This document shows, piece after piece, positions 11,925 through 34,196 of a stretch of 64,000 bases of DNA. Every line of letters starts with the position of its first letter. The first letter of the stretch is position 1. A model generated the notes under the pieces. That model did not search any database and was not told the DNA's origin. It saw only the letters and a list, made by a program, of their open reading frames with translations. The DNA is from Anadara kagoshimensis (taxonomy: Eukaryota > Mollusca > Bivalvia > Arcoida > Arcidae): assembly GCA_021292105.1 (NCBI GenBank), contig CM037874.1, forward strand, positions 54,046,540 through 54,110,539, written 5' to 3'. The position numbers were made by a program, and so were the translations under genes.

Positions 11925-12060
11925 GTTAGCTAGATCTTGTTTAATTGGAGAACACCCGGTCTCATTTCTCTTGTAGACGTTCACGTGTTTAGCTTAATAA
12001 GTCAGTTTATGTTTTTTTGGATTGTAATTTTATTAAACATTGACTGGCATGTTTCGATTC
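11925..12060 (+). mobile_element. Penelope-like tail fragment, diverged
   Basis: TTAGCTAGATCTTGTTTAAT, GAACACCCGGTCTCATTTC and CATTGACTGGCATGTTTCG. Confidence 0.6.
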
Positions 12061-12487: not shown

Positions 12488-13385
12488 TAGCTCACATGAC
12501 CGAAGGTCTTATGAGCTTATGGCATAGTGTGTATGTGTGCGCGTGCGTATGTGCGTCGATAACACATATTTCCGACTTCTAACACTACCAGACAGATTTC
12601 AATGAAACTTAGCCAAAAGTATATATGGGCTGATGCAATTCAGATTTTTTCGGGGCGTTGTTATGGCTACATAACTAGGTCAAGGTGACCTAGGGGTGCA
12701 AAAATCTTAAAACATTTCTTCCAAGAAACGAGGATTGAAGAAAAAATATGATGTGATATTTGGCTTCTCTAGGGTATTAAGCCTATAGTTCGTTCGGACA
12801 AAAAATATGTTACGCGTTTTTTTGCGTTAAATTTGAAAAAAGGCTTAAAATTGTTATAACTCAACTAGTTGCTCAGATAATGACATGGGGTTTTCAGTTT
12901 TGACACATTCTCGTAATAACCTTCAACACAGGGTCATGAATTTTTTACCTTTCTGATAGGTAATTGGTTCAAAAGTCAAGGTCGCAGATGGGGAAAATAT
13001 CGAAATGGTAACTTATCTGGTAACTATTAAATTTTTGTGTAGGTATGTGTTTAAAAATGATGTAGGTATTGATATAATGGTCATTTTGATGTATAGAAAA
13101 AAGTCAAGCTCACAGACGCAAAACAATACTTAAATGGTTAATTATCTCGAAAACCTTTTACTTTATGTATAGGCATGTATATTGAAATCATTTTGATGCA
13201 TGAAAAAAGGTCATTGGTTCAAAGGCCAAGGCCAAAGATGCAAAAGAATATTGAAATGGTTATTTAACTAGAAAAACACTCAATTTGTTACTATATGAAA
13301 AGATTTTGACATTGGGGTTACAGTATTTATGTTTTCTTGGAAATTTTAGATAGACATTATTTACCAGGCCGAATGGGTCTCTTTG
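12488..13385. mobile_element. Noncoding dispersed-type element starting TTAGCTCACATGACC
   Basis: Left end TTAGCTCACATGACCGAAGG with a short inverted repeat (GACCGAAGGTC). The interior has three or four loose repeats (AAAGGTCATTGGTTCAAAGG, GAATATTGAAATGGTTA). The right end is GGCCGAATGGGTCTCTTTG. Same style as the element at 55551. No protein. Confidence 0.5.
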
Positions 13386-13830
13386 TTATTACATACATAG
13401 ATTCAACTACATGTCATAAACCAGAAACGTCTCCTTTTTCTGAACGTCATTCAATATAGGTCACGGAATCCATGTAAATGTATTTTTATGCCAGTAAATA
13501 TGTATAATATACGTAAGCAATATTATTTTCAAGAACATAATTCGATTAATGACTATAATCACTATTATCTCTATACATGCAATATATACGTAGTAGTTAA
13601 GCTGTCACATAATAAAGGATTGAACCTATATCGATTATTAAAATGTTTCTCACGCCTGGATTTCGCAAGAGTATACATAGTAATGCTCAATTTCTAGAGG
13701 CTGACATGTGATCGTTTGTTAGTGTAATCATTGATAAGAGCCTGAAATATAAAAGCACTTATCATTGATAACTAAGGTTTAACACGATATAGGTTCTGAC
13801 AATTCGAAGTCATCAATACAATAAAGAAAT

Positions 13831-14002
13831 ATGAATTACAAATATCTGAGTGTACTTGCTAAGAACAAAGTTAAAATTGATAATGTTTCATTTTTGTTGG
13901 AAAATATTTCGGACTCAATTTACGGTAACCAGTATTTGCTGTTTCATTCTAAACTTACAGAGATTGAAGATTATTTAGTTGGAATATATTTGATATTAAC
14001 AG
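13831..14002 (+). CDS. Opsin exon 1 (N terminus and start of TM1)
   Basis: Encodes residues 1-57 plus one base. The extracellular N terminus has sequons Asn18-Val-Ser and Asn25-Ile-Ser. SKLTEIEDYLVGIYLILTG then enters TM1. The donor is G|GTCAGT at 14003 (phase 1). It joins exon 2, 12.6 kb away, to make ILTG-IFSIILNSLVIY, which restores a continuous first helix. No other exon in the window fits this junction as well. Confidence 0.82.
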
Positions 14003-17000
14003 GTCAGTATGTTAGTATTAACGTATTTAGCACTTTTTCCCATTTTGTCTTAAAATGTATTATGTATAGTATATTACAGTCCAACAATATTTAAAACAAA
14101 TAATTTTTATTTTTATTTTTACTTGTATTTTTCTCATTGCATTATCTTTTTACAATTATGTTATGAGCGCTACTAATAATGATTTTTTTTTCAAAATAGC
14201 TGCCTAATGCTGCTGCAAAATTAGAACAGGTTTATTAATAATAAGTCACCGAAAAAAGATTCCGTATCTTTCACAACCTGACTTATCAATTCCAAAGTTT
14301 TTACTTTGCTTCTGGATTGTGATTCGGACATGGATTATTATGTTTGTTTTTAATCATACTTCATATAAATCAACTATATTTATAATAGTATGTCAAATCT
14401 GATTCATAACATTCTGATAATGCTGATTGTAGATAAATGATATTTTATATAAGGAATAATAAAACTGACAAACATTTATCAACAAATCTGAAAACAGCTT
14501 TAACATCCAATCTCACTTTTCCCCGAAGAAAGTTCCTTAGTTTTGACGTAAGTTGTCAGGTTTCAATCTATTTACCTTGCTTTTATGACAGGTTGATGTA
14601 GGAGGCTAACTAATTCGGTAGCTCAGTTGTTAGCTTGCTCGCTCCGTAAGTGGGAGGTCTTTGGTTCAATCCCAGGCCGGGTCTGACCCAAGACTTAAAC
14701 GTGGGTAGTGACTGTTCTTTCGCCAAGCATCCGGCATTACGAAATGAAAGTTGCATGTTCTTCGGATAGGAACTTAAAATAAACCAGATCCCGTATCTTC
14801 GTAGGCTTGGTACGATAAAGAACCCTGCTGTATTATAGCATCAGTGCAATATGCACAGGCAAAATTTTCACATTTGCCTATAGCTGGCGATGTCTCCATA
14901 TAAGTGAAATATTTTTGACTGGGACAATAAACACCATTACTCAATTCAACTCCACTCTTGATTTTGTAGACTTTTTATAGTTCGTTCTTTCTTCTTTCTT
15001 TGCTGTTTTCTACAATGATCAATATTTGCTATGTTTGCTATTGTGTTTGTAAAAACTAGGTTGGTTTTGACCTTCAACATGTTTCACAATTACAAAAGTG
15101 GAGATAAGCTTAAACATAAGGAGTCTTAAATTTAGGGACACCAATAAGCTTTTGATCTTGTTTTCCTTTTGTTTAATTTTTAGATATTTAAGTTTTATAT
15201 TACTTTTTGTCAATTATCATATGTGAATATGCAGTTTTTGTTAAAATTTTAAAGCTTGTCTATTTTGGTATGAACATTTTCAAAATATGAAATTCTCTAC
15301 CATTAGTTTTCTCCTGAATATTATTGCTTAACGGACATTTCGGAATTCCTCATCAACAATGCTCTGACCAAAATTGTCAAAATTCAAATATTTTTATGAT
15401 GCTGAAACGAAAAAAAACTAGGGCATAAATATGTGTTTCCAATTTCACGTAAGACAATACTTTCACGATTAAGCATAACTTAGTGTATTAAAGAATTTTT
15501 AAAATGTTCGTATAAAATTTGTTTAAAAAACAAAGCAGAGAATTTTGATTAATAATGTTTATATGATAAATAGATTGCACTGTCTACTGGTTTAACGATA
15601 TTCTCGGGGACGCTTAGTCACATGTTTCAACAGATTCATTCGATAAAAATAACATTGTTATATCAAAAATTTTACATTTCTATTTTCTTTACGAAAACTA
15701 CAGAATCTTTTGTATCAATCAAATGATATAAGATGTCCTAGACTCCAAAAACGTTATGCCTATTATCTGTCGATATGTATGATGGCAGTGTATATAAATT
15801 AACTGGGAAATTAAATTTAGGAAACATAATATATTGAGGATAAAAAGATAAAACACATTCAGGGTACTGAGTACCTTTTACAATGAATCAGTAGGTAACA
15901 GATTAAATTTTTAAAATGAAAATAACACAATTTGTTGTCTGGTATGTGTTTGATTGCATATGATAAATGTTATTTTTTTGCATGTCAGTTAACCTCTGAG
16001 CAGGAATCTATGCTGGTAGCTGGTGCCCTGAGAACATTATAAACTCAGAAGGCAATAATTGTGTGTTATTGTTACATATACACTTTGTTTAAATTTGCTG
16101 CTTAAAAAGATTGAAATTCCTCAAAAAGATTATACTCCCTCATGCAAAGTATTTTCTAACTAGTTTGCGTAAAATATAATTTGGTCCTCTGGTTATCTTT
16201 TCAACATCTTGAAACTATTTTCGTTCCATAACTTTTGTCCAGGCACTAATGATTAGAAATTGTATTCCGAAACGGCCGTCTAGTGCTCTAAAATCCAAAC
16301 TGGCATAATATGTAATAATAATATTATACTGAGTCCAGATTTGATTGTCTGTTTTCAAAGTTTTAATAATTTAATATCACAAAATTGTTTTTTCGTAAAA
16401 TGCAGCATTTGTTTACCATTTGCAAATGAAGTTTTTGTCGATTTTAACTTTTCAAAAGCAGTCTATCTGGTAGATCAGACACATATTAATATAAATTGTC
16501 AAAATAAAAACTAATAAGACCTTCAAACTCAAAATCCACAAAATAGAATATTAAATTAAGCGTCTGTAAGCGTTTTGACCCTAACGAAATGTTTCATTTG
16601 AAGCTGCATCACAAATCTGATGACTTCAATTTTTCTATTGTTAACGTTCCTTTTCTATGCAGCACTATCCTTGTTTTTCCTGCTTATGGTGTATTTGTTT
16701 CCCAATTAATACGCTATGGTAAATCTTTATCCAACTGCGGGAAATTTATACAACAAGGCAAGCTACTTATGAATAAATTGTTGTCCCAGGGATATTTAGG
16801 TCCATGCTTATCAAGGCTCTCAAAGAGTTTAATGGACTTTATCGCAATATTGTTGATGAAATGATGTCTCAGTATCCAACATTACCCTAGATATATTTGA
16901 CGTTCCATAGTTCCGTGTTCCTCTCATACCAAATTTTATTACAAACGCTGAGTTTTGCTAGCTAAACAGGAAGTACTGACTCTTTCGGAGCACTCGGAGT

Positions 17001-20000
17001 CACTTCTCTTGTGGAAGTTCATGGGTATAATAATTGGACATTTTGCACACTGAATAATTTGCGTATATTAAAGATATATTTCAATATATATTTAAATATA
17101 TATTTAAACCTAAAAATATATAAAAAGTGTAACATCCAATCAAAACTACAGAATAATCAATTGACGGATCGCCGGCCACGCACACAATGTTACAACAAAG
17201 GCCCAGCATTTTTGAATTACACGCAAAAAGAATGAAAACTCGGCATGAATTGTGATATTTAATGACGTCACTGATAACTAAAACGCCATAAGTTCCTGTG
17301 GCGCTGCTTTGATAACATGATGTGATGGCGGCCATTGTCGGAACATAAAAGGCATGGCCAGCGATACGTCAACTATCAAGAAGTTTCTATACTATAGACC
17401 ACGCAATCAAAAAACAAATCAAACATACCAATCCATGTTCAAACAACATTGCAAAATGAAAAAATGAAAACTTCGAAGCCGGCTTATTTGGTAAAACACG
17501 CGAATCCCATCAGAGAGGTGAGGACTTTATAAAAATAGACTAAGAATTTGATCAAGTCTTAAAGCCCTTGATATTGTTGATAAGTATGATGACTGCGCAT
17601 CATTAACTATCCTGGGCATATTAGACGTCCCATAGTTCCTTGATCCTTTAGATATCAAGTTTCATTTCACATGTGGCCTTGTATCTAGCCAATCCTTCCG
17701 GAATAATTTAATTTGCTTTCGGAGTTTGTGTTTGTGCTCGATCAATAGGACAAAATTAACAATCAAAACCGTATTCAAATATATAGCTTCCCTGATTAAT
17801 GAAATAACATTATTTTTTGTCTAGAACTGGCTGTCGGTCAACGGCCACAAATAGAGCACCTGGTGACACTCATGACTTTTAACTGAAATATAATCTGATC
17901 TTTCATTTAGATTTTCAACGTATGTGATGGGTCGTTTCAGATTTCAACCCGATTGATTAAATGCACTTGAATACACCTATATTGATAAAAACGGATACGA
18001 AGTACTATCTATCATCTTACGCAATTGAACAATCCCTGAAAATGACTTTTATTTGCATGGTGCATGTACTCATTTGACTAGAGATACGTTTTTCAGTGGT
18101 CCATATCGAAGTTTTGTGAATTAAGTGTCTCGCTTCGATTCCCAAAACGGAAAGCATGGCATAAATTTGGCATTTAATTTCAGATTGTATTACATATTAT
18201 ACCAGTTTTAATTTTACATCACTAGATGGCCGTTTTGGAATACAATTCCTCATCAGTAGTGCTTGGACCAAAATTATGAAACCAAAATTATTTTGAAAAT
18301 GTTGAAAAGGTACCCAGAGGACCAAAATATATTTTACGAAATTAAGCTAAGGAAATACTTTGCATGAGTGAGTATACCTTAGTTTTTGAGAAACTTCAAA
18401 TTTTAACTTGCAGGAAATTTAGACAATTATATCAATTTGTTCAATTGACAAGTGAATGAGACCCAAAATAGTCTTGCTTATGTAAATGGATAAGTATGTT
18501 TGTTTTTGATTATCTCCGAAAAGAGAAAAAACAAAATTTAAAAGCATAACTAAAACGTTGTTATGGATATGAGACCTGTTTCAATGATTGTGATATAAAA
18601 TATATATTTGAAATGCTCATACTTATATGAGCTAAATTGGGCTAAATTAGAAGATGTTGAGCTTGATACTTTATCCGACTGGATAAAGGTTGTGAGGTCT
18701 TTTGTTAAAACTAGGATTGCCAAACTTAAAGGGTATATGAGTACTAAACCGTCTTCAGTACTCAAGAATCCAGAAATCAAGGCAATTGTAACAGACATAC
18801 ACAACAAATATGTTGTTGTCCCAGCTGATAAGGCTTCCAACAACATTATTATCGTTTGTAAGAGATTCTACCTTGAATGTCTTATTAAAGAGCTTGATTT
18901 CGATAGTATATCAAATAACCCTGCATATACTAGAACTAATTTTACTAAAGATGAAGTTCTTTCCAACCATAGGGGAGTTTTCGAGTCTTTCGATATCAAT
19001 CTTAAAGAGGAAGATCTTGATCTTCCTTACTTGTATTGGATTCCTAAACTCAATAAAAATCGATACAAGGAAAGATATATAGCAGGCTCATCTAAATGTA
19101 CTGCTAAATCATTATCGGTAACTCTAACACAAATTTTGACAATCGTCAAAGATGGTCTTCAGTCTTATTCAGAAAAAGTATATTCTACATCTGGAATCAA
19201 CCAAATGTGGATTCTCAAAAATTCTAAAGAATTACTTGAACATCTTTCTTCTAATACTTTATCTCATGTAAAAAGTATAAAAACATTTGATTTTTCTACA
19301 CTATACACCACAATCCCTCATTCTAAATTGAAAGAACGTCTTAAAGAAATTATTCACTGGTCTTTCTTCTACAAAAACGGTAAGCCAAGATACAGATATC
19401 TGGTGCAGAACAGAGATTCTGGTTATTTTGTCAAACACCATACGTATTGCAAACAAAAATATACTGAAGATACCATCAACAAAATGTTGGAGTTTTTGAT
19501 AGATAACATATTTGTTGTGTTTGGTAATATAGTTTTTCAGCAAACAATCGGTATACCAATGGGTACAAACTGTGCACCATTGCTTGCTGATTTGTTTCTT
19601 TATTCTTACGAAGCAGAATTTATGCAGAACCTTGTTAAATCTGTAGAGAAAACTGTCGCCAAATCATTCAACTCAACATACAGATATATAGATGACGTTC
19701 TGTCTCTTAACAATCCTAAATTTGGAGACTATGTAAATGTCATCTTTCCTAGTGAGCTTGAAATAAAAGACACGACTGATTCCTCAAGTTCTGCTTCATA
19801 TTTAGACCTATACCTGAATTATGACGCACAGGAAAGGCTACATTTGAAACTTTATGACAAACGTGATGACTTCAATTTTTCTATTGTCAACTTTCCTTTT
19901 TTATGCAGCAATATACCTGCTTCTCCTGCTTATGGTGTATTTGTTTCCCAATTAATACGCTATGGTAGAGCTTGTTCCCACTACGGGGACTTTGTACAAC

Positions 20001-23000
20001 GAAGTAGGCTGCTTGCAAATAAATTGTTGACTCAGGGATATTGCAAGCCTAGGCTTATCAAGGCCCTCAAAAAGTTTTATGGCCGTCATCACAGTATTGT
20101 TGATAAGTTTGATGTCTCTGTGTCCAGGATTGCCTTGGATATATTTGACGTCTCGTAGTTCCATGTTCCTTTCACACAATTTTGATTACACACGTGGCGG
20201 GTGTAGCTAGCTAAACAGGAGGTGCTTACCTTTCCGGAGCACCCGGCCTTACTTGCCTGGTGGAAGTTCACGTGTCTAACCTAACTTGTCAGTTCCAAAG
20301 TTTTTACTTTGCTTCTGGATTGAGATTCGGAAATGAATTAGTATGTTTATTTTTGATTATATTTTAGTTTAAAAAAGACAGTAGTCTTCTTATACTTTAT
20401 CTCATGTAAAAAGTATAAAAACATTTGATTTTTCTACACTATACACCACAATCCCTCATTCTAAATTGAAAGAACGTCTTAAAGAAATTATTCACTGGTC
20501 TTTCTTCTACAAAAACGGTAAGCCAAGATACAGATATCTGGTGCAGAACAGAGATTCTGGTTATTTTGTCAAGCACCATACGTATTGCAAACAAAAATAT
20601 ACTGAAGATACCATCAACAAAATGTTGGAGTTTTTGATAGATAACATATTTGTTGTGTTTGGTAATATAGTTTTTCAGCAAACAATCGGTATACCAATGG
20701 GTACAAACTGTGCACCATTGCTTGCTGATTTGTTTCTTTATTCTTACGAAGCAGAATTTATGCAGAACCTTGTTAAATCTGTAGAGAAAACTGTCGCCAA
20801 ATCATTCAACTCAACATACAGATATATAGTTGACGTTCTGTCTCTTAACAATCCTAAATTTGGAGACTATGTAAATGTCATCTTTCCTAGTGAGCTTGAA
20901 ATAAAAGACACGACTGATTCCTCAAGTTCTGCTTCATATTTAGACCTATACCTGAATTATGACGCACAGGAAATACTACAATTGAAACTTTATGACAAAC
21001 GTGATGACTTCAATTTTTCTATTGTCAACTTTCCTTTTTTATGCAGCAATAAACCTGCTTCTCCTGCTTATGGTGTATTTGTTTCCCAATTAATACGCTA
21101 TGGTAGAGCTTGTTCCCACTACGGGGACTTTGTACAACGAAGTAGGCTGCTTGCAAATAAATTGTTGACTCAGGGATATTGAAAGCCTAGGCTTATCAAG
21201 GCCCTCAAAAAGTTTTATGGTCGTCATCACAGTATTGTTGATAAGTTTGATGTCTCTGTGTCCAGGATTGCCTTGGATATATTTGACGTCTCGTAGTTCC
21301 ATGTTCCTTTCACACAATTTTAATTACACACGTGGCGGGTGTAGCTAGCTAAACAGGAGGTGCTTACCCTTCCGGAGCACCCGGCCTCACTTGCCTGGTG
21401 GAAGTTCACGTGTCTAACCTAACTTGTCAGTTCCAAAGTTTTTACTTTGCTTCTGGATTGTGATTCGGAAATGGATTAGTATGCTTTTTTTTGATTATAT
21501 TTTTATTTAAAAAAGACAGTAACACAACTGTAATAACTGATAATACATACCGTCTGAGTTGACAGTCCGTTTAAACTTTTTCAAATTACTATGCTAGTGA
21601 AAGATTGATGATACGTTAAAAACCGTGCTTAATGTCCACAGCATATAACTAACAACAATAAGTTAAACGATAAATATTTACTATTGTGCATTGTATATTA
21701 TGTTTTATAGCTAGATGGCGTTTTAACGCTACTACCAACATCACGAAATGAAAAAAAAACTAATTACAATGGGGAATGTCATTTACACATGCTATGAAAA
21801 ACAAAATAATCAATCAAAATTATTTCATAAAAATATTTATTTTGGAGCATAATGTGATGGGTTTTTAATTTTTATAATTATCACTGTAAAGACGCTTTAA
21901 ACAGTACATAATGTTATTTGAATGCATGCGTTATATAAATTAAAACATTATTTCGATGATTCGGAATTGATTTCTCAGATTCAAATTTACTGCTTTCCTT
22001 CTGGATTTTAAATCGGACATGGACTAGTATGTTTGTTTTTTATTGTGTCTTTCTGAGAAATTCAATAAAGATGTGTTGATGTTTTGGAAATACCGAGGGT
22101 TTTATCCCCTGTTTCCGAGACCCCGAACATTCTTCTTGGAAAGCAACAAATTCCTTTAAAATACACTGCCTGTTGAAATAAATGCTAGAATAAGCATAAA
22201 GACTAACTACTTCTTTATTTAAAAAACAAAACAAAGCTTTGTTTTATCGGCTAGGACTAATGAAAAATATATTGGTCAATCTATTTTGCGCCTCAGAAAT
22301 GGTCAGAACACTACTAATTAAGTAATGATTGTAATTTTTTTTATCTATGGGGTAATGGATAAAATTATGTGGTGCATGCGGCATAAAACCGCAAAGCGAA
22401 TTATGCATACGCGTGCACCAAATAATTTTATGTATGACCCCATAGATAGAAAAAAAATTACAATCATTCCTTATAATTAAATTCAAAAATAAGTTCAATA
22501 TTCATAACATTCATGTAATCTTTAAATTATACACATGAAACAAAAAAAAACAGCGCATTAAAACAAAAAATGACACATTAATCTAAAAGCGGAACACAGA
22601 TGATTGCCAATGGCAACCGCCGGTAGCCAGCTTTGCATGAACATTTTCTGCACAATATGACGTCAAAAATTCTGTCTATGGATCATAGATATAAATAATT
22701 ACAACACTGGATAGTATTAAAATTTACTTATTGAGAAATAGTACATCTAGTGTTGCAAATTTACAGTAATAATATGTATATTGATTGTTTCTGTAAATTC
22801 TGGTTATTCTGAAAATTAGGATGTTTGGTTAAACAAATGAGAAATCCATAATAGCTTGCTTAAAACCACTGAACCACAAAGAATAAAATAAAACCAACAA
22901 TGCCAGAACAATTTAGTCAAAATTGATGGCGTCCTAGTATTGTAACTGGGCTTTTTTCATTCAGGATTCGTTAGTTTGGATTGTGTGTGTCGCCATCAAT

Positions 23001-26000
23001 AATCAAGTTTTAACTACCATCACTTGTTCTGTTAAACCAATTTTCAGTCAGTTATTCTGTCCATTTTTGAAATTATAGATTGCAGTCAAGTACATGTATA
23101 TATGTAAATCTCCGTAATGCAGATAATAGCCTATATCGTGTAATGTCTCTCAAAAGAGAGTTGACTGTCTCCAATCACATATTCAGTAAACTGGGTTATA
23201 CCCAATTAAATAACCGTATATAACTTGTGTGTATCTCTGTTTTATCACGTTTGTCTGTAAACTTTAGTAAAATATTTTCTAGTGTCAGTCACATTATTCG
23301 AAGTTAATATCGACCCAATTAGAGACGGTTAAAGAACAATTTGCATACCATAGATGTAGATTTACTTTATACCTTCTAAATTACGTCGTACCTCTGTGAC
23401 ATTGGAAGTCAAGCACAAACATACTGGTTCATGTCCAAAACAAAAAATGAAAACTTTGGAACAACGGCAAATTTGGTTAAATACGTAAACGGAAGCGTAG
23501 GCAGTTCATGTTTGTGCTATTAAAATTGAGAAGTAAATAAACATAAAATTAGGTGACGTAATTACATTTTATACCAGTTTTAATTCTACAGCACTAGACG
23601 GCCGTTTCGGAATATAATTCCTCATCAGTAGTGCTTGGACCAAATTTATGAAAACAAAATTATTTTGAAGACGATGAAAAGCTACCAAAAGGACCAAAAT
23701 ATATTTTACCAAATTAGGCTAAGGAAATACTTTGCATGAGGGAGTTTACCTTAGTTTTTGAGAAATTTCAATTTTAAACTTGCAGGAAATTCAGACAATT
23801 ATAGTATATTTCTAGCAATAATACGAAATTATTGCCTACTGATTATAAATTATACCCAATAATAGTTTTGATACAGAAAGATCTTTATACTTATCAACAC
23901 TATTGTACTGACGGCCATATAACGTTTTCGGGCCTAAGCTTTCATTATCCCTAAACTAACCATTTATTTGTCAACAGTTTGCTTTTTTGTATAAAGATTC
24001 TGTAGTGGAACCAAATACCATAGCGTACTACATTATATATTTACCAGTTTTAATTTTACACCACTGCACCGCCTTCAAGGAATGCAATTTTTTAATCTGT
24101 AAACCAAAGGACAAAATATATTTTACCAAATTTAGCTAAAGAAATACTTTGCATGATGGAGTATACAAACTATGAAATAATACAGAAAAAAGCAGATATA
24201 ATGCTGCATAGAAATTAGTTGTCAATAAATAAGTCATCACGTTTGGTAAACTTTAGATTAAAAAACCCATATCAATTCATGTTATGTTTATTTTTACTCT
24301 TCTGGGGCATCCTGGCCTCACTTACTTGGTGGAAGTTCACGTGTCTAACCCGACTTGTCAGTTCCAAAGTTGTTACTTTGCTTTTGAAATGTGATTCGGA
24401 CATGGATTACATGTTCTTTTTTTGTTGTTGTTGTTGTTGTTTTATCCATTCAAAAATTGGTGTGTGATATTCATGCATATCTAATGTACTAATTTTTGTT
24501 TCATGTGTCCTTTAGAGGTTAAGAATCGGAATTGGTGTTTATCAGATTTAAATTCCCCTTATTATTTATTTAAATTGACCTTGTGTAAGCTGTTTAAGGT
24601 TTACATGAATTTTGTCCTTGCTCTTTAAAGTAAATTGTCGTTTTTATTTATTTTTATTTGTAAAAACTCAGTAAAAGTAAATTATATTTTGCGTCATGTA
24701 TGTTAAAGATTTTGATTTAGTAATCATATTATTGCTACACTCAATTTCTTAGCATAAAGTAGTATTTTGACGTACTTAAAAAACTTGTTTTATGGTGTTC
24801 CTCTTGACAGGGTTTTAATTAGTAATTCAAAACTCGACGGTAGTATACATAATTCCCATTCACAGAAACTTATTTATCTCGCTATTTTGTTTTGTTTTGG
24901 ATTTTTCAACTTGTAATTTATGTTTTAAATTGGCTGTAAGTTCATAAGATTGCTTGATTTGCAGAACTCTATTATATTTCAATGCTATTGACCTTTTCAA
25001 TATCTAAAATACCGTTCAGATGATGAAACTCAAGTTGTGTTTTCTTTTACCTTTTGTTCTATTATTTATTTGTTATTTTTGTCTTCATGTCATCCATTTT
25101 CAGCAATTTACCATGCAAATGTCATGGACGTTTTTGTAAATACAACTTAGTCGACTATTTTAATAAGACTTTTAGTTGCCGACATGTTGGATTGTTTGGC
25201 CTTCTATTAAAACTATATTCATACCACAGATCATTAACATTTCACTGAACATTAAAATCCTTAGTCTGGATTTTATCGTCATTGTTCCACTTATTTGTTT
25301 CACTTTTCTTGTCATCTTTGGCTGCTTCTTATAATAACATGTAGTGTATCAATAAATGGTTGTGGTGACTTAAACCATATTCACAGTTTTCAAATACTAT
25401 TTTTCCTCTATTGTATTTTTTATTTACCATTTGTTATAATAACTTATTATACCAGTGTTGATGTTACGTCCGTTTTTGGAAATGCATTTCTTCATCATTA
25501 GTGTATGGACCAAAATTGTAAAACCAAAAGTTTTCAAAGGATTGAAAAATCCAAAGGACCAAAATATATTTAACCAAATTCACCTTTGCATACTTTGCAT
25601 CAGGGAGTATACCTTATAATTTGTGGCTTTTAAAATTTATACTAGCAGCAAAAGTACACAATAGTATTATTCTTACAATTATTATTCTTAAAGTATTGCT
25701 TAATGAGTTTGTGATATCCTCAAGGGAACTATCCATCAGCAGAGATACCGACTCAAGCAAAAATTTAGGTCCCAACATTAGCAACAATAGCACTACGCCC
25801 ACATCAGCAGAATTTACTCCAGTTTTTGTAATAATTATAATGTTCACAAAAGCTTGATTACACACGTGGCGGATGTAGCTAGATAAACAGAAGGTCTTAC
25901 TCTTTCGGAGCACCCTGGTGGAAGTTCACGAGTCTAACTTGACTTGTCAGTTCCAAAGTTTTTTATTTACTTCTGGGTGTGGTTCAGGCATGGATTAGTA

Positions 26001-29000
26001 TGTCTGTTTTTTATTTAAATAATTTCATAATTTTTTCTTACCATGTCTTGTTTATTTGCTTTATTCTTTATCTTTATTTTGTTTTGATTTTGATAGCGAT
26101 TGCTGTTGCTAAGTAGACGTTTTTCAATTACATTTTTCTTCAGTTGTATTTTTTATTCCATCAAGTCTTTATATATAGCACTTTGCTTACAATGAGCCAT
26201 CAAATTTATGTATTGTGTTTAATTTTCCATTTTTTCTATTCGTAAACTTCAAGTTTCTTTTTTTCTCAGGCGTCTTGTAAATATACTGTTGATGCAGGGA
26301 TGTGCAATCCCCGGCTTAACAAACACTTCAAAACGTTATATTGCCGTCGATAAGTATGGTGTATCTGTATCCAACGTCACCCTGGATATATTTGACGTTC
26401 CAATAGTTCAGTGATCATTTCATTCTATATATGTTGTTCATACATGTGGTGGGTGTTGCTAGCTAAACAGGAGGTGCTTAACCTTCCGGAGTACCCTGTC
26501 CACTTCCTTGTTAGAAGTTCAGGTGTTTAACCTAATTTGCTAGTTTGAAAATTAAAACTTTGCTTCGGATTGTGATTTGAACAAAGATTATTTTGTTTGT
26601 TTTTATATAACATTAGGTGTAATTGGTATTTTATTTTTTGTTGCAGGTATTTTCTCGATAATATTAAATTCACTTGTGATATATGTATGTTTCAAACAAC
26701 GAAACCTTCTAGTGGCTTCAGACTATTACATAGTCAACTTAGCAGTTAGCGATTTATTATTACCAGTCATCGGATTTCCCTTCGCTGTCACCTCATCATT
26801 TGGACATAAATGGAATTTCGGATATCCAGGTACGTTTCCAAATATCTAATGTAACTAATAAAGATTTGGGGACCGTTTGATGGAGGAATACATCTGAAAT
26901 GTATAATAATATAGTAATAACCGTAGCAGTACATGTTAAAAGCAACATCCAAACACAAAGCTGGAAAACTTTGAAAACTGGTAAATTTCGTTTAACACGT
27001 GAACAGGGAATTGAGATCAGTTGCTTCGGAGGGATAAACACCTTCCGTTTAGCTAGCTATACACGTCAAGTGTTAAACCAAAATCGAGAAAGAAAGTAAC
27101 ATGGAATTATATCCAGGATTATTATGGATACAGGTATTATATATAATTATCAACAATATTATGATGACGGCCATAAAACGTTTAAACGTAATTACATATT
27201 CATGAATAGTTATTTTATCCTCATATTTTACTAGTACAGGAAAAGGTCATGAATTATTTTTATACAAGGAAGTAATTTTAACTCTCATATTTAAAAGTAC
27301 CAATGAACTGTCTTACAAAAGAACGAGAAAATAAAAGTAAAACACGTGAACTTTGTATAAAGTAGCTTTGCAAAAGTAAGCTCTTTCTGATGAACTAGTT
27401 TCAGCCGCTTTGTATCTACACAATCCGATCATAAAACCAAAAGATTTCAGTAACTTTATTCCTAGCAATATCATTACAAATCTAATTCAATTATACAAAC
27501 TTAAGAAAATTAAAAGTCTCAAATTACATATAATTCCAATGTTAATAAAATTAAAATACGAATTTTCAGTCCAAAAATTCTTCAGTATTAATATGTATTT
27601 ATTGCATCGATCAGATATCTCATGCATCATATCATCATATACACAGCAGGCTGCTTGCAAATAAACTGTTGACTCAGGGATATTGCAAGCCTAGGCTTAT
27701 CAAGGCCCTCAAAAAGTTTTATGGTCATCATCAGAGTATTGTTGATAAGTTTGATGTCTCTGTGCCCAGGATTGCCCTGGATTATTTGACGTCCCATTGT
27801 TCCATGTTCATTTCACACAATTTTGATTACACACGTAACGGGTGTAGCTAGCTTAACAAAAGGTGCTTACTCTTCCAAAGCACCCGGCCTCACTTCTCTG
27901 GTTGAAGTTTACGTGGTTAGCCTAACTTGTCACTTCCAAAGTTTTTGCTTTGCTGCTGGATTGTGATTCGGATATGGATTAGTATGTTTGTTTTTTGATT
28001 GATACAAAACTATATGTATACTAATATATATTGTTTATAATTGTTATATATGCAAATGTCAAACAACGAAATACGTCTTTATATCAAACAAAGTTTCTTT
28101 TAATATAAGAATTTTTTTCAAATATTTATACATATCGTATATTATTAATTTAAACAGTTCATTTTTTTACAAAATGTTTAAACCATAAATGTATTAAGTC
28201 ACACACAAGATATTTTGTACAAATTACATATTATACCAGTATTAATTTTACATCATGGAATAAAATTCAGTCAGTAGTGCTTCAACCAAAAATATAAAAC
28301 TAAAATTGTTTTCAAGATGTTGAAAATATTACCAAAAGACCAAAATATATTTTACCAAATTTAGCTAAGGACTTTGCATGAGGGAGTATACCTTACTTTT
28401 AGAGAAATTTCAAATTGTAACTAGTTAATATGGTAAACGCAACACATATAATAGACAAGAATGTAGTTCGAAAATGAACAGAAGAGTTGAAAATATGTAC
28501 TTGGCAACAGCCAACACAACCAAAACGCAACACTATACAAGTTAAAACTAAAGCGGATAAGATAAGACAATAAAAGGCAAACATATGTATAAATTTGTCG
28601 ACTTCGGACGGGTGCTGAAATTAATGTCCATGATAAAATTACATATTATACCAGTGTAAATTTTACAGTACTAGGCGACTGTTTTGAAATCCAATTCCTC
28701 ATCAGTAGTGCTTGGACAAAAATTCTAATTTCTTTTCAAGAGGCTGAAAAAATATCCAAATGCCTAAGATATATTTAATCAAGTTTAGCTATGGAAATAC
28801 TTTACTTAAGGGGGATGGGAAACTTGTTTTATGATGTTTTTAAGATTTTATGCAGCAGTAAATAGGCAATAGTAATAATAATAGTACTGACGTTGTTCTC
28901 TTTTTGAAGGCCCTCGGCCAACCTGAATGTTTTACAACCAGTGATCGACAAATACAAGCATTTAAAAATTCAAAATATGAATCTAATTTTACAAACATTG

Positions 29001-32000: not shown

Positions 32001-34196
32001 AGATTTCAAATTTTTTAGATTTAAGTTAAGAAACCATTGGGGTATTTTTGTATTGATCTCAAAAGTCTGTTGTCATTTGCTTTAATTCAAATAACACATA
32101 AATCATGTAAAAGTGCAGACTGGTGCAAAGTAGTTTATTGAACTTTCCCTGTAACTGTATCACTTTTTGTTTCTCATTCGTCTTTGCTGGAGGAGTAAAC
32201 ATCCCCAACGATACCATTAACTACGCATGCAATACTTTTGTATTGTCAGAAATATACTACTTCTAAATTTGCTCTAGTTAAAATTTAAAAAAAAACTAGG
32301 GTATACTGTAGATTGGATAATTTTTGCGTGAACGCACTTTAATATTTATTCGCGTCTTTTAATTTTCGCGTAAACGCAAAGTTATAATTTTAATTACTGC
32401 ATATTTTTCGCGAAACTTTCGCTCGCGAATTTACGATAAAAAAAACGATCGCGAGTTTTTATCAATTTACAATACTTCCTCATTTACAGTTTTTTCCTTA
32501 TTTCCCTAACCAAATCCATTTAAATATATTTACGTCATTTTAATATTTTTGCAACCCCCTTAAAAATTTAGATTTGACAATTTTGGTACAAACACTACTG
32601 TTTTATTGTTGAGGAATTGTATTCCAAAGCGGCTGTCTAGTGCTGTGAAATAGGCACTTGTATCATTTCTAATCAAAAACAAATTTTATAATTTCAGAAT
32701 TTATGGTCGGTCAGCGTACTGGTATGCTTATATTTGGAACCTATTTCTACGCAAGTCTTTGGGCATTTCCGCCAATCATGGGTTGGGGTGATTATGGTGT
32801 AGAGCCTCATGGGACATCTTGTACTTTAAAATGGAACGGAAATAGAACTTTTGTGACGTTTATGCTAATTACATGTATTATAATGCCAGTAATTATTATG
32901 AATCTATGTTATGGAAGTGTTTGGAATTATTTAAAAAAGAACACGAAATATATAGCTAAATGGACATCAGGGAGAAGCATGTGGAAAAAACGTGAAGGTT
33001 ATTTAATAAAGGTTAGTTTTACGTTTTGTTCTTATTTTTATTAACATAATCATTACAAAAATTGAAAATTATTCTGACTGGATCGTCTCTAAATCTAATA
33101 GTTCCATGCCCTTTCATTGTCAATTTTGACTTCACGCGTCGAGAAAAAACGCTAGAATTTGGATGCTAACCCGTCCAAAGCAACAAGGCATTCCCTGGTG
33201 GAAGATTAAATTTGATTTGTCTGTTTTTCAAAGCTTACCCCTGTAATTTGAATATCGACCGGTAGTATTGATTAAATAACATTAAACCCAATAATACTTA
33301 AATAGAATGATCCCAAAATAGAGACATTAAAATTGCATAACACTGATCTTGTTAGTTGATTATTGCAATTTTTTGAAGATCACAGAATACGGATTCCAAT
33401 ATTGGATGAATCAAAAACAAACAAACCCATGTTCAAACCACAATCAAGAAGCAAAGTAAAATTTTTGAAACTGAGAAGTTAGAATAAACATGTGAACTTC
33501 CATCAGGGAAATGGGGCCGAGTGTTCCAGAAGGGTAAGCGCCTCCTGTTTAGCCAGCTAAACCCGACACGTGTGTAATCAAAATTGAGTGAGAGGATTAA
33601 TCTTTTTAGACAAATATTGATAACAGATATATTTTCATTTAAAAACCTCTGTTTGACCAATATAAGGTACAGTTTTTCAATGCTTTTAAAGATTCATTAA
33701 CGGTTGTAATTTTCTTAATGTGTCCAAAGTCAGGCGTTTTACTAGTATTCAGTAGTCCCTTGTTCATGTCTGACTAATTTGTGTCAGTTATTTTGTTGTG
33801 GTTGAGACCTCCGCCAACTGGTCAAGACCAACGTTCTGGGCTTGGTTTATAATTCACGAAAAGACGTTTGCATTCTTTAAAACTTGAAGAGTACAGCTGA
33901 TCTATACACAACTATTTTAATGATATTCTATGTTCTATTTTCAGATAACGTTTACAATGTGTTGTGCTTTCATGGGAACATGGACACCTTACGCTGTGGT
34001 CAGTTTCTGGTCAGCGTACGGGTCAGAGCAGACTATACCTATCAGAGTCACGTTGACTGCAGTATTACTAGCAAAACTAGCCTCTGTACTTAACCCATTT
34101 ATTTACTTTTTAATGAATAGAAAATTTAGTCCACATGTGAAAGCCTATCTTATGAAAACTTTCCGATCGGTTCAGTTCAATTCCGAAATTCAATAG
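13831..34196 (+). CDS. Opsin, neuropsin (Opn5)-like, five exons
   Basis: A retinal-binding G-protein-coupled receptor of the plasma membrane, assembled from exons 13831-14002, 26647-26829, 29564-29671, 32698-33011 and 33945-34196 (1029 nt, 342 residues plus TAG). Every junction is GT-AG and in phase. Seen: two N-glycosylation sequons (Asn18, Asn25); TM2 LAVSDLL with Asp93; TM3 Cys120 paired with loop-2 Cys196 (76 apart, 77 in bovine rhodopsin); Glu190 six residues before Cys196, the position of bovine Glu181; Tyr123 at the position of bovine Glu113; TM6 WTPY with Pro274; TM7 Lys303, the Schiff-base lysine, six residues before NPFIY (309-313). Loop 2 GDYGVEPHGTSCTLKW and TM6-7 YAVVSFWSAYG resemble Opn5 most. 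Length fits the family. The start is the first ATG after an in-frame TAA at 13822. Odd: VRY (144-146) replaces E/DRY. That it is an opsin is close to certain; the Opn5 subfamily is my inference, and another tetraopsin (peropsin, Go) is possible. Confidence 0.9.
14270..14362 (+). mobile_element. Penelope-like tail fragment
   Basis: CAACCTGACTTATCAATTCC to CATGGATTATTATGTTTG. Well preserved but short. First element inside opsin intron 1. Confidence 0.8.
14613..14955 (+). mobile_element. tRNA-derived SINE, family B
   Basis: Head GGTAGCTCAGTTGTTAG (A box) and TTGGTTCAATCCC (B box), then GCCGGGTCTGACCCAAGACT, AAAGAACCCTGCTGTAT, and the end CTATAGCTGGCGATGTCTC, TTTTTGACTGGGACAATAAA. Full-length, about 340 bp. 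Confidence 0.88.
15290..15425 (-). mobile_element. Hammerhead module, short degraded copy
   Basis: The remnant at 15330-15375 keeps UGAUGAG, but the core C is U, the stem II loop is gone and GAAAC is GAAAU. Module flanks are weak. Confidence 0.4.
15426..16079. other. Opsin intron 1, no feature recognised
   Basis: AT-rich. A weak polymerase-end phrase (GTCGATATGTATGATGGC) near 15770 hints at one more ancient Penelope-like fragment. 17700-18179, 21516-21964 and 22479-23407 in the same intron are also unexplained. Confidence 0.5.
16080..16340 (+). mobile_element. Hammerhead module, catalytic strand mutated
   Basis: The ribozyme region on the + strand is 16242-16287. GAAAC, GGCC, GUC and UAGUGCU are intact, but CUGAUGAG reads AUGAUUAG. 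The module is otherwise full length and lies about 250 bp before a + strand Penelope-like fragment. Confidence 0.62.
16560..17032 (+). pseudogene. Penelope-like polymerase C-terminal fragment plus tail
   Basis: FHLKLHHKSDDFNFSIVNVPFLCS and AYGVFVSQLIRYGKS match the copy-1 protein from about codon 416 on. Frameshifts follow near 16800 and the tail stops near 17030 (CTCTTGTGGAAGTTCATGGG). Confidence 0.85.
17080..17110. repeat. AT-rich simple repeat
   Basis: Two to three copies of ATATATTTAAAT. Confidence 0.7.
17400..17530 (-). mobile_element. Penelope-like tail, head-to-head with the next entry
   Basis: GCAATCAAAAAACAAATCAA, CCAATCCATGTTCAAA, GCGAATCCCATCAGAGAGGT in reversed orientation. Confidence 0.65.
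17550..17690 (+). mobile_element. Penelope-like polymerase end, diverged
   Basis: CAAGTCTTAAAGCCCTTGAT, TTGATAAGTATGATGACTG, GACGTCCCATAGTTCC. Opposed to the preceding tail. Confidence 0.6.
18180..18440 (-). mobile_element. Hammerhead module just upstream of the Penelope-like polymerase
   Basis: Full-length module. The ribozyme is on the - strand at 18220-18263. CUGAUGAG is intact; GAAA is AAAA and GUC is AUC. It lies antisense to, and directly upstream of, the element whose polymerase starts at 18608. Confidence 0.66.
18484..20386 (+). mobile_element. Penelope-like element, copy 1 with 3'-end repeats on both sides
   Basis: The element's terminal motif (GTATGTTTGTTTTTGATTA) occurs at about 18498-18517, upstream of the polymerase, and again after the 3' untranslated tail at about 20340-20360 with one change. 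Such terminal repeats recall the pseudo-LTRs of Penelope-like elements. The tail after the stop has a characteristic block: GTAGCTAGCTAAACAGGAGG, GGAGCACCCGGCC, GTGGAAGTTCACGTGTCTAA, then TTTTTACTTTGCTTCTGGAT. This block defines all the tail fragments listed elsewhere. Confidence 0.65.
18608..20158 (+). CDS. Penelope-like element reverse transcriptase, copy 1 (5'-incomplete ORF)
   Basis: An open frame of 516 codons encoding a retroelement polymerase. Seen: PADKASNNIIIVCK (72-85), LPYLYWIPKLNK (139-150), FDFSTLYTTIP (227-237, first catalytic Asp228), GIPMGTNCAP (315-324), catalytic YIDD (360-363), then YLDLYLNYD and a palm/thumb region ending LDIFDVS. The order and wording fit Penelope-like elements better than LINE or LTR polymerases (inference). 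There is no GIY-YIG endonuclease after the polymerase before the TAG. The frame opens after a stop at 18596 with TTG at 18608 and has no ATG until codon 44, so the N terminus is missing or lies in another segment. It lies sense-oriented in opsin intron 1. The 3' tail runs to about 20370. Confidence 0.78.
   Translation: MKCSYLYELNWAKLEDVELDTLSDWIKVVRSFVKTRIAKLKGYMSTKPSSVLKNPEIKAIVTDIHNKYVVVPADKASNNIIIVCKRFYLECLIKELDFDSISNNPAYTRTNFTKDEVLSNHRGVFESFDINLKEEDLDLPYLYWIPKLNKNRYKERYIAGSSKCTAKSLSVTLTQILTIVKDGLQSYSEKVYSTSGINQMWILKNSKELLEHLSSNTLSHVKSIKTFDFSTLYTTIPHSKLKERLKEIIHWSFFYKNGKPRYRYLVQNRDSGYFVKHHTYCKQKYTEDTINKMLEFLIDNIFVVFGNIVFQQTIGIPMGTNCAPLLADLFLYSYEAEFMQNLVKSVEKTVAKSFNSTYRYIDDVLSLNNPKFGDYVNVIFPSELEIKDTTDSSSSASYLDLYLNYDAQERLHLKLYDKRDDFNFSIVNFPFLCSNIPASPAYGVFVSQLIRYGRACSHYGDFVQRSRLLANKLLTQGYCKPRLIKALKKFYGRHHSIVDKFDVSVSRIALDIFDVS
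20384..21515 (+). pseudogene. Penelope-like element copy 2, truncated and inactivated
   Basis: A tandem, 5'-truncated copy that starts inside the polymerase (corresponding to about 19247) and runs through the same 3' tail, offset 1137 bp. By eye it differs from copy 1 at roughly a dozen or more positions. Two changes kill it: A-to-T at 20830 turns the catalytic YIDD into YIVD, and C-to-A at 21182 makes TGA where copy 1 has Cys. The remaining open frame is 20466-21182. Both copies share about 28 bp after the tail (TTTAAAAAAGACAGTA), which suggests a duplication that included flanking DNA or a shared insertion unit. Confidence 0.85.
21965..22045 (+). mobile_element. Penelope-like terminal fragment
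   Basis: CCTTCTGGATTTTAAATCGG and GGACTAGTATGTTTGTTTTT. Confidence 0.6.
22322..22478. mobile_element. Foldback (long inverted-repeat) element
   Basis: Arms of about 55-60 bp: AATGATTGTAATTTTTTTTA with ATCTATGGGGTAATGGATAA on the left, and CCCCATAGATAGAAAAAAAA with TTACAATCATT on the right, around a loop of about 35 bp (AAACCGCAAAGCGAATT). No open frame. Confidence 0.82.
23408..23503 (-). mobile_element. Penelope-like tail fragment
   Basis: AGCACAAACATACTGGTTCA, GAAAACTTTGGAAC and GGTTAAATACGTAAACGG, reversed. Confidence 0.6.
23555..23815 (-). mobile_element. Hammerhead-bearing dispersed module, best copy
   Basis: About 260 bp shared by ten or so sites in the window. On the + strand it reads: a TTATACCAGTTTTAATTT-type start, the ribozyme complement, CTTGGACCAAAATT, GGACCAAAATATATTTTACC, GGAAATACTTTGCATGAGGG, GAGAAATTTCAA, AACTTGCAGGAAATT, then AT-rich sequence. 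It has no coding capacity. It may be an untranslated part of the Penelope-like family or an independent small retroelement that uses it. Confidence 0.7.
23590..23635 (-). ncRNA. Type I hammerhead ribozyme, all core bases intact
   Basis: Read on the - strand the 46 bases are: stem I AGCACUA, core CUGAUGA, stem II GGAAU-UAU-AUUCC, GAAAC, loop GGCC, GUC, then stem I UAGUGCU. Stem I pairs 7 of 7, stem II 5 of 5, stem III is minimal (A-U, C-G). Cleavage is expected after the C of GUC, between 23597 and 23596. Open stem I plus tiny stem III is the form known from Penelope-like elements and animal retrozyme-type repeats. It is the only copy in the window with no core change. It sits antisense in opsin intron 1. 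Confidence 0.85.
23880..24033 (-). mobile_element. Penelope-like polymerase C-terminal remnant
   Basis: TTATCAACACTATTGTACTG, GGCCATATAACGTTTT and CCAAATACCATAGCGTA are the reversed end of the polymerase. Frame is lost. Confidence 0.65.
24035..24170 (-). mobile_element. Hammerhead module, decayed
   Basis: It keeps the TTTACCAGTTTTAATTTTAC start and the GGACAAAATATATTTTACC and AAATACTTTGCATGA blocks. The ribozyme part is destroyed. Confidence 0.45.
24300..24425 (+). mobile_element. Penelope-like tail fragment
   Basis: GGGGCATCCTGGCCTCACTT to GTGATTCGGACATGGATTAC. Well preserved. Confidence 0.8.
24426..25434. other. Opsin intron 1, T-rich stretch
   Basis: (TTG)n at 24424-24440, then T-rich sequence without a recognisable element. 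26013-26279 is similar. Confidence 0.5.
25435..25690 (-). mobile_element. Hammerhead module, decayed
   Basis: The ribozyme remnant is at about 25467-25506 (- strand), with AUGAUGAA for CUGAUGAG and AAAAAC for GAAAC. Module blocks are recognisable to about 25690. A + strand Penelope-like tail follows at 25853. Confidence 0.5.
25853..26012 (+). mobile_element. Penelope-like tail fragment
   Basis: TTGATTACACACGTGGCGGA, GTAGCTAGATAAACAG, CGGAGCACCCTGGTGGAAGT and terminus ATTAGTATGTCTGTTTTT. An internal deletion removes GGCCTCACTT. Confidence 0.85.
26280..26605 (+). mobile_element. Penelope-like polymerase end plus tail next to opsin exon 2
   Basis: AATCCCCGGCTTAACAAACA, GATATATTTGACGTTCC, GCTAGCTAAACAGGAGGTGC, and terminus near 26605. 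It ends about 40 bp before the exon, so the branch-point region is partly element-derived or directly beside it. Confidence 0.78.
26647..26829 (+). CDS. Opsin exon 2 (TM1-TM2)
   Basis: Encodes residues 58-118 plus flanking split codons. The acceptor TTTTTTGTTGCAG ends at 26646 and the donor is GTACGT at 26830 (phase 1). It holds NSLVIYV of TM1 (Asn65 at position 1.50, with Leu instead of the usual Gly before it), SDYYIVNLAVSDLLLP of TM2 and the loop Trp113. A Penelope-like tail ends only about 40 bp upstream of the exon. Confidence 0.88.
26935..27188 (-). mobile_element. Penelope-like tail plus polymerase end, diverged
   Basis: CCTTCCGTTTAGCTAGCTAT, ACACGTCAAGTGTTAAACC and ATGATGACGGCCATAAAACG, reversed. 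In opsin intron 2. Confidence 0.72.
27648..28000 (+). mobile_element. Penelope-like polymerase C terminus plus tail, young-looking
   Basis: It opens with AGGCTGCTTGCAAATAAAC and stays close to copy 1 through TTGCAAGCCTAGGCTTATCA, the tail and the terminus. A missing base near 27781 shifts the last codons. Confidence 0.88.
28215..28440 (-). mobile_element. Hammerhead module with ribozyme partly deleted
   Basis: The module start and end blocks are present (CAGTAGTGCTTCAACC, CCAAAATATATTTTACC, GACTTTGCATGAGGGAG). The central stem II and GAAA part is lost. Confidence 0.5.
28635..28880 (-). mobile_element. Hammerhead module, GAAA mutated
   Basis: The ribozyme region is 28667-28711 on the - strand. 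CUGAUGAG and the 5' stem I strand are intact; GAAAC is AAAAC and GUC is lost. A + strand Penelope-like fragment follows at 29060. Confidence 0.5.
29060..29232 (+). mobile_element. Penelope-like polymerase end plus tail, 3'-truncated
   Basis: AATAAGTTTAATGTCATTGT, GATATATTTGACGTCCCATA, CACGTGGCGGTGTCGCTAGC, ending soon after GAAGTTCACGTGTC. Confidence 0.8.
29481..29548 (+). pseudogene. Broken partial duplicate of opsin exon 3
   Basis: This 68-base stretch repeats the start of exon 3 (29564-29631) almost base for base, from GGTGCCAAGC to AACATTGATG, about 83 bp upstream of the true exon. It has one extra base near 29500, so the frame is lost, and its 5' edge (TATATTTAAG) is a poor acceptor. 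A fainter third copy may lie at about 29418-29470. It reads as a local tandem duplication that has decayed. Confidence 0.75.
29564..29671 (+). CDS. Opsin exon 3 (TM3)
   Basis: Encodes Gly119 (split) to Leu154 plus one base. The acceptor ...TTATGTTTCAG ends at 29563 and the donor is GTAAGT at 29672 (phase 1). It carries disulfide Cys120 and the helix ending in MSFVRYVSV. The acidic residue of E/DRY is Val144. A broken copy of the first part of this exon lies at 29481-29548. Confidence 0.88.
29672..30714. other. Opsin intron 3, mostly unexplained
   Basis: A short (ATA)n run near 29892-29912; otherwise AT-rich sequence. 27189-27647 (intron 2), 30896-31405 and 31823-32269 (intron 3) also show nothing I can name. 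Confidence 0.5.
30715..30895 (-). mobile_element. Penelope-like tail, old
   Basis: CAAAAACACATCGTCCATG, AAAGGATAAACATAGCCTAC and GCAACCCAACGTGTGTCAG, reversed. Confidence 0.5.
31406..31622. mobile_element. MITE with TCGCG-rich interior
   Basis: Termini ATACTGTAAATGTATTT and AAATATATACGTTTACGGTAT are inverted repeats of about 15 bp with few mismatches. The interior has repeated TTTTCGCG and CGCGTTT. No coding capacity. About 215 bp. Confidence 0.65.
31632..31822. mobile_element. MITE family C, copy 1
   Basis: Termini TACAGTCAAACCTGCCT and AGGCAGGTTGGATTGTA pair at 15 of 17 positions. The interior has AATATGAATAAAGAACAA and ACTGGCCTTTATAAGCAGGT, shared with 37465 and 63325. Confidence 0.8.
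32303..32480. mobile_element. MITE-like block with repeated TTCGCG
   Basis: TATTCGCGTCTTTTAATTTT, CGCGTAAACGCAAAG and TTTCGCGAAACTTTCGC resemble the interior of the MITE at 31406. Only the left terminus (TATACTGTAGATTGG) is clear. Confidence 0.45.
32520..32680 (+). mobile_element. Hammerhead module remnant beside opsin exon 4
   Basis: The + strand carries TTGAGGAATTGTATTCC, AAAGC and GUCUAGUGCU, a broken ribozyme with an insertion before the core. Its other half may be the block at 32270-32300, split by a MITE-like stretch. It ends about 20 bp before the splice acceptor of opsin exon 4. Confidence 0.5.
32698..33011 (+). CDS. Opsin exon 4 (TM4, loop 2, TM5, loop 3)
   Basis: Encodes residues 155-259. 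The acceptor ATAATTTCAG ends at 32697 and the donor GTTAGT starts at 33012 (phase 0). It holds TM4 with WAFPPIMGWG, the beta-hairpin loop with Glu190 and Cys196, TM5 with MPVIIMNLCYGSVW, and a short basic third cytoplasmic loop. A hammerhead module remnant ends about 50 bp upstream of the acceptor. Confidence 0.9.
33085..33262 (+). mobile_element. Penelope-like tail, old, in opsin intron 4
   Basis: AGTTCCATGCCCTTTCATTG, TTCCCTGGTGGAAGATTAAA and GAATATCGACCGGTAG. Confidence 0.5.
33408..33600 (-). mobile_element. Penelope-like tail fragment in opsin intron 4
   Basis: ATCAAAAACAAACAAACCCA, CTTCCATCAGGGAAATGGGG, CGCCTCCTGTTTAGCCAGCT, ACACGTGTGTAATCAAAATT. Confidence 0.85.
33945..34196 (+). CDS. 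Opsin exon 5 (TM6, TM7, tail)
   Basis: Encodes residues 260-342 and the TAG at 34194. The acceptor TTCTATTTTCAG ends at 33944 (phase 0). It contains TM6 with GTWTPYAVVSFW, TM7 with LLAKLASVLNPFIY (Lys303 binds retinal), an amphipathic helix-8 stretch NRKFSPHVKAYL and a short tail without a palmitoylation-type Cys pair. Confidence 0.92.
   Translation: MTFTMCCAFMGTWTPYAVVSFWSAYGSEQTIPIRVTLTAVLLAKLASVLNPFIYFLMNRKFSPHVKAYLMKTFRSVQFNSEIQ

Follow-up and report, generated by a model that had tools for sequence, protein, structure and literature searches.

A type I hammerhead in Anadara kagoshimensis DNA and the 339-bp retrozyme-like repeat to which it belongs

The 64,000-nucleotide stretch of Anadara kagoshimensis DNA analysed here (the window; assembly GCA_021292105.1, contig CM037874.1, positions 54,046,540 to 54,110,539 of the forward strand) contains a type I hammerhead ribozyme at 23590–23635 on the minus strand, which belongs to a degraded and 5'-truncated copy, standing alone, of a 339-bp retrozyme repeat without visible long terminal repeats (LTRs). 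By sequence comparison, the repeat is a new family within an established class, that of the animal non-LTR retrozymes. The best explanation for its distribution, and one we consider quite probable, is a retrozyme cycle of hammerhead cutting, ligation into a circle, and copying by a Penelope-like reverse transcriptase (RT) from unit position 339.

The window hammerhead and its repeat family

Hammerheads share the core motifs CUGANGA and GAAA, a UH at the cut and three stems, type I being those that open at stem I, and the cut falls after GTC. The minus strand of the window reads AGCACTA (23635–23629), CTGATGA (23628–23622), GGAAT-TAT-ATTCC (23621–23609), GAAA (23608–23605), CGGCC (23604–23600), GTC (23599–23597) and, beyond the cut, TAGTGCT (23596–23590); stem I is 7 bp (AGCACTA/TAGTGCT), stem II is 5 bp (GGAAT/ATTCC), and the minimal stem III (ACGGCCGT) has 2 bp (A-U and C-G) closed by GGCC. 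The opening at stem I that characterizes type I hammerheads is present, as are the conserved core and the three stems that the first-pass annotation of this DNA had reported, and its placement of the cut between 23597 (the C of GTC) and 23596 (T) agrees with the position of GTC. These features confirm the element as a genuine hammerhead with a predicted cut at this point.

A chance match to the hammerhead consensus is a practically negligible explanation. The loose core pattern CTGATGA-N4-20-GAAA is in keeping with it, having two window matches with 0.80 expected and 23 of 100 shuffles reaching two (not significant), but a 32-base motif that has five window matches with up to three mismatches and none in 100 shuffles speaks against chance, which is refuted by the genome-wide count (1.115 Gb) of cores with exact spacing of stem II and GTC, of which there are 8,975 compared with 12 for the reversed pattern. 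Fold energy does not set the window hammerhead apart: its z is -1.45, and 16 of 200 shuffles do equally well. The covariance-model check proposed in the first-pass annotation gave a mixed outcome: a 56-base scan (23585–23640) matches Rfam RF00163 Hammerhead_1 at 28.1 bits (E 8.5e-6), and on the other side of the balance stand the threshold of 34, which this score does not reach, and a whole-window scan at gathering score, which returned no match at all. A 401-base scan with E up to 5 also gave no hammerhead match. The low score is not peculiar to the window copy, because of two tandem units matched at another locus, L001, one likewise scores 28.1 bits and the other, with a changed loop, 17.9; the stems are nearly alike among the retrozyme copies compared.

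Locus L001 (G000:C1:310271-311964) contains five head-to-tail units of 338–339 bp with a hammerhead in each, and the GC content of one unit is 34%, low as in animal retrozymes. Exact matches number 900 for the junction of two units and 5,811 for the tail, and reversed controls give zero for either. The window copy occupies 23562–23842 on the minus strand and corresponds to unit 59–339, with 91% identity to a tandem unit of the same genome (blastn with unit L001:610-948); its 3' end, ...AAAATGTAA followed by TTACG, lies at the 3' boundary common to insertions of the family. Animal non-LTR retrozymes lack LTRs, a tRNA primer site and a polypurine tract; in the Anadara unit and its flanks no LTR-like ends were seen by eye. 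The Anadara repeat fits the retrozyme class in its tandem repeats, which in that class are ~170–400 bp long with a type I hammerhead in each; members of the class are expressed as linear and circular RNA.

As described in the consulted sections of Cervera and de la Pena 2020 (PMC7229834), the non-LTR retrozymes of the mussel likewise combine a type I hammerhead with short AT-rich head-to-tail repeats in thousands of copies, the repeats being ~350–390 bp with ~5,000 motifs, compared with 339 bp and 8,975 intact cores here, and invertebrate hammerheads have a 2-bp stem III with a tetraloop, as in the window. The assignment in the first-pass annotation to type I hammerheads with a tiny stem III, of the animal retrozyme type, is borne out. 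A common 3' end past the cut, 5' truncation and read-through of the cut, all seen here, are undescribed in the consulted sections of PMC7229834. The same source describes newt and axolotl retrozymes with dimeric hammerheads that have a very short stem III, a palindromic tetraloop and predicted dimer action, as here; these amphibian satellite-like repeats of 330–350 bp resemble the Anadara repeat by description only. Plant LTR retrozymes, in the parts of PMC7229834 and PMC7761336 considered, also spread hammerhead repeats as non-autonomous elements, but have type III hammerheads, LTRs and 4-bp duplications, whereas the hammerhead here is type I and no LTR was seen.

Stem III is an 8-base palindrome (ACGGCCGU). 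In a single molecule the hammerhead fold is predicted at -7.8 kcal/mol compared with -12.3 for the best fold, and two window copies co-fold best (-34.5) as a dimeric hammerhead with both stems I, both stems II and a shared 8-bp stem III, so that folding predicts that a solitary window copy would cut poorly. For an L001 unit folded as a closed 339-nt circle, stems I and II are predicted to form with pair probabilities of 0.67–0.90, and stem III is not likely to form. The first-pass annotation had proposed that the window copy could seed small circular RNAs, and this is not supported: a circle needs two working hammerheads in tandem, and the copy is a lone partial unit (59–339) that lacks them, the other six ribozyme-spanning copies in the window having broken cores. 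The window copy also cannot release a monomer, because there is no second working hammerhead on its strand. At most one slow cut of an antisense transcript, and no circle, would be expected.

Insertion ends, read-through of the cut and array composition

The family, as read from the assembly, consists of numerous copies in tandem and single form with a common 3' end and 5' truncation. In the examined loci, 71 of 100 arrays end at unit 334–339 (43/53 in loci chosen by core, 16/22 chosen by score, 8/13 in the window and 4/12 in random loci), the remaining ends are scattered, and the 5' ends are variable. The 98 listed placements chain into 41 arrays, a score-selected sample that favours full units, and among its 35 multi-unit arrays 33 end at unit 334–339 and in 32 the first unit is truncated. 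In the tandem unit, 36 nt separate the predicted cut from the common end beyond it, an interval corresponding to 23562–23596 on the minus strand of the window. Copies with ends at unit 334–339 include 51 single and 21 multi-unit ones, and single inserts with the common end range from 69 to 339 nt, the lower limit being set by the choice of loci.

The targets are TT-rich, with short duplications in a minority. At the 71 common-end insertions, the first base of the 3' flank (+1) is T in 57 cases and the second (+2) in 50, compared with a T background of 36%, although pairing with the TTT that comes next in the repeat could also account for this T-rich flank. Target duplications of at least 5 bases are present at 12 of the 71 insertions, with 3.8 in shuffles and 0 of 300 shuffles reaching 12; duplications in the retrozyme class exceed 4 bp when present, and at L078:445-718, where a retrozyme is inserted within a Penelope-like copy, 3 bases are shared by the two parts of the split element. 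A 32-base repeat borders the L011 insertion on each side, though the flank there is itself made up of local repeats. Several locus pairs (L086/L087, L097/L098, L096/L099, L084/L085 and L069/L070) have near-identical flanks or shared lesions and are probably copies duplicated after insertion, each to be counted once in surveys. In L012 and L045, two retrozyme arrays stand head to head at their 5' ends with 8–13 shared bases and their common 3' ends outward, and look as if both target strands had been extended.

Read-through of the cut is also evident. Synthesis that set out from the common end on a cleaved linear monomer would run off at unit 304, having copied 36 nt. Exact-match tails counted genome-wide from unit 309, 304 and 302 number 3,750, 3,060 and 2,823, giving a per-base retention of 0.9601 over 309–304 and 0.9605 over 304–302, and the 2,823 seen compare with 2,821 expected without a special stop. 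Sequence is lost at the same rate over the cut as beside it, so the usual template was something other than cleaved linear RNA; it generally ran on past the cut and so was a ligated circle or an uncut multimer. Frequent complementary DNA (cDNA) ends at unit 304, considered as a footprint of a cleaved template, are accordingly rejected for lack of any excess in these counts. Of the 39 places on C1 up to 11.69 Mb where the tail from unit 304 is matched exactly, 16 carry an intact hammerhead, three (L015, L072 and L080) belong to the loci described above and 20 were read for this purpose; among the last, L082, L086 and L091 break exactly at unit 304, L087 within 1 base and L081 within 2, the breaks in L086 and L087 probably being one event. 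In other loci, mostly picked for an intact core, breaks were found in 0/97 at 304, 1/105 at 303 and 2/107 at 302.

Units within an array resemble one another. Among 40 full units from 19 loci, the within-array distance is 0.018 compared with 0.036 with shuffled labels, and minority variants common to all units of an array number 31 compared with 2.3 in label shuffles (0/200 shuffles in each case). Nine of the 14 arrays with two or more full units are monophyletic, and young arrays are nearly uniform (0.0% in L055, 0.3% in L045 and L049, and 0.6% in L057), with the nearest unit of another array at 0.9–3.0%. These array-specific variants and low within-array distances favour one template per array, hence a circle. 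Where the first unit starts is a lead only: of the 13 multi-unit arrays in loci not selected by score, 11 have their start at unit 222–302, shortly after a full lap, and the other two start at 92 and 113; with a stricter filter, 8/8 stop soon after one lap. A stop soon after one lap is not upheld as a rule, as 13 of the 35 multi-unit arrays in the score-selected set begin below unit 200.

The proposed cycle, the copying enzyme and competing explanations

In the proposed cycle, tandem retrozyme copies would be transcribed, neighbouring hammerheads would dimerize by way of palindromic stem III and cleave every unit between positions 303 and 304, and the monomers would be ligated into closed circles. 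An RT, most likely of Penelope-like type, would then nick AT-rich DNA and start inside the RNA at unit 339, 36 nt past the ligated cut, pass the cut site and perhaps run more than one lap before falling off, so that inserts would share their 3' end, differ in their 5' end and in some cases comprise several tandem units. Cleavage in vivo, ligation, the circle as template and the Penelope-like enzyme are inferred parts of this cycle.

Penelope-like elements encode an RT, with or without GIY-YIG; the 339-bp unit is too short to encode one. The window itself includes, as a separate element, a candidate for the type of machinery, a plus-strand frame of 519 amino acids at 18599–20158 (RVT_1 at 22.1 bits, E 1.4e-4, below the cut-off of 29.6), which from its RT motifs we take to be Penelope-like; it is directly followed by a 98%-identical, 5'-truncated tandem copy from 20385 to 21521. 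Related RT sequences are abundant in the genome, with open frames of up to 1,067 amino acids and 70,620 first-look candidates, 83 places of which were scored; of the other 82 matches listed, 80 start no earlier than residue 10 of the 519-residue frame in the window.

In the parts of Frangieh et al. 2024 (PMC11167929) considered here, a Penelope-like RT starts inside its RNA and extends both strands, prefers AT-rich ATT sites, and leaves genomic copies with a 30–40 bp tail that is the interval between two RT start sites; hammerhead cleavage was found dispensable for the element, Poseidon of Anolis. The retrozyme insertions match these traits in having an internal start at a set point downstream of the hammerhead and a T-rich target, and they share with Poseidon, as described there, an RT start inside the RNA downstream of the hammerhead cut, an AT-rich target and partial tandems. 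Poseidon differs in being autonomous and coding, whereas the 339-bp unit is non-coding for RT, and the distance from its cut (+26) to one of its RT starts (+111 to +118 in the element's frame) is by our arithmetic ~85–92 nt, compared with 36 nt here; the 30–40 bp Poseidon tail spans two RT starts, not the interval from cut to start. The link to Penelope-like elements drawn in the first-pass annotation is indirect: the insertions start at one internal RNA point, as published for the Penelope-like RT, but the unit gives no significant match to the element in the window.

More broadly, animal retrozymes may be parasites of Penelope-like elements, whose enzyme would prime on the target at one internal site of the circle and carry out rolling-circle reverse transcription, a possibility we raise tentatively. 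If so, the genome would keep a length record of the laps, seen in the shared end at unit 339, the passage through the ligated cut and the many arrays that stop shortly past a single lap. For animal retrozymes, the consulted parts of PMC7229834 and PMC7761336 leave the copying enzyme open and propose a circular template without direct proof, and a common 3' end of retrozymes is unnamed in the titles and abstract beginnings returned by literature searches on retrozyme ends and templates. The thousands of insertions here have a common 3' end and a measurable 36-nt offset from the cut, at which cDNA ends give no signal, and the questions of template and enzyme become counts feasible in any assembled animal genome.

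Several observations weigh against the cycle or its parts. In 26 copies not picked for the ribozyme, the hammerhead region is hardly more conserved than its surroundings (0.844 for the hammerhead, 0.78–0.82 for positions 1–264, 0.854 for the tail and 0.768 for GAAA). In the window and 20 random loci just 12 of 25 arrays reach unit 334, and the fixed end is less clean in these samples, whose copies are older and broken. Monophyly fails in five of the 14 arrays that have at least two full units, and a homogeneous source array could mimic the signal of one template per array; read-through of the cut, like an internal start at a fixed place, would equally be expected from an uncleaved tandem transcript. 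As to the enzyme, blastn of the unit with the window's Penelope-like element (18432–20384) gives no significant match (best E 0.97), no clear TT preference is seen by eye at the 3' ends of that family, and the unit has no shared 3' sequence that would tie it to the autonomous element in this, the sole family compared. Junctions of 5' ends between retrozymes and Penelope pieces were seen in 4/69 (0.5 expected) and then in 0/23 arrays of a second set, and head-to-head joining of the two as a general rule is not upheld.

The closest competitor to the circle keeps the same retrozyme family but has the RT copy an uncut multimeric transcript, the ribozyme being a by-product or acting in some other step. 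This we hold to be unlikely, though it deserves serious attention: read-through of the cut fits it too, and the score-selected arrays that begin below unit 200, without a stop soon after one lap, are in its favour, whereas the near uniformity of young arrays and their shared array-specific variants speak against it, as do the arrays outside the score-selected loci that stop soon after one lap (11/13, a small number), which a long linear template would not predict. Retrotransposition is dispensed with altogether if the repeat is plain satellite DNA with a hammerhead, spread by unequal exchange or other DNA-level events; the head-to-tail arrays agree with this, but the predominance of single over multi-unit common-end copies (51 to 21), the variable 5' ends, the TT-rich 3' flanks and the short target duplications at a minority of insertions make it very improbable.

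A derivation from Penelope-like elements themselves, the hammerhead coming from the pseudo-LTR of an autonomous element and the repeat being its detached end, is improbable, if somewhat less so than satellite DNA. Penelope-like pieces are frequent around the ribozyme, and Penelope elements carry minimal type I hammerheads according to the consulted sections of PMC7229834, but the repeat builds its own complete 339-bp tandem units, and the blastn comparison with the window element described above is not significant. A search for zero-loop Penelope-type hammerheads, made for the short stem II only, gave 209 matches compared with 37 reversed, and most of the 100 listed look by eye like retrozymes with a 4-base deletion.

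Other retrozyme copies and the opsin-like gene

The 64-kb window contains 13 fragments of the repeat, the hammerhead copy and 12 others, compared with 13 in 200 kb (20 arbitrarily placed 10-kb loci). Only the copy at 23562–23842 has an intact hammerhead core among the seven that span the ribozyme. The second-best copy, at 18190–18431 on the minus strand (unit 98–339, 93%), has a core broken by GAAA to AAAA and GTC to ATC changes, and a nearly full-length copy at 15991–16315 on the plus strand (unit 5–339, 79%) also has a broken core, as do the fragments at 9609–9829 (plus; unit 102–336), 4803–4943 (minus; unit 195–339), 28224–28422 (minus; unit 121–339) and 28639–28812 (minus; unit 159–339). 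Blastn further identifies old fragments at 25475–25755 (minus; unit 11–295, 75%) and 15331–15503 (minus; unit 129–302, 70%), two short ones within 24037–24166 (minus; unit 281–335 and 152–215), and two old ones within 32203–32650 (plus; unit 40–158 and 172–316).

The first-pass annotation placed the ribozyme antisense in intron 1 of an opsin gene, which holds for the orientation and for the opsin-like exons downstream, and not for exon 1, for which a simple scan of 9000–26600 gave no convincing candidate. Of four downstream plus-strand exon frames, two score above the 7tm_1 cut-off, a third falls just short of it and the fourth matches weakly; the last exon also gives matches to rhodopsin structures. 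The exon with transmembrane segment 1 appears to begin at 26648 after AG, ~3.0 kb beyond the antisense ribozyme, and a location in opsin intron 1 is plausible.

A long tandem array at ~39700–47200 on the minus strand yields repetitive open frames (FNLICQFQFFSFEAPGLISLVDSSLVKVHV and similar), and some of its parts have matches in a short segment close to the 3' end of the Penelope-like element. The plus-strand open frames at 1160–1438 and 5304–5618 resemble by eye the antisense of the Penelope-like 3' untranslated region and are probably not genes.
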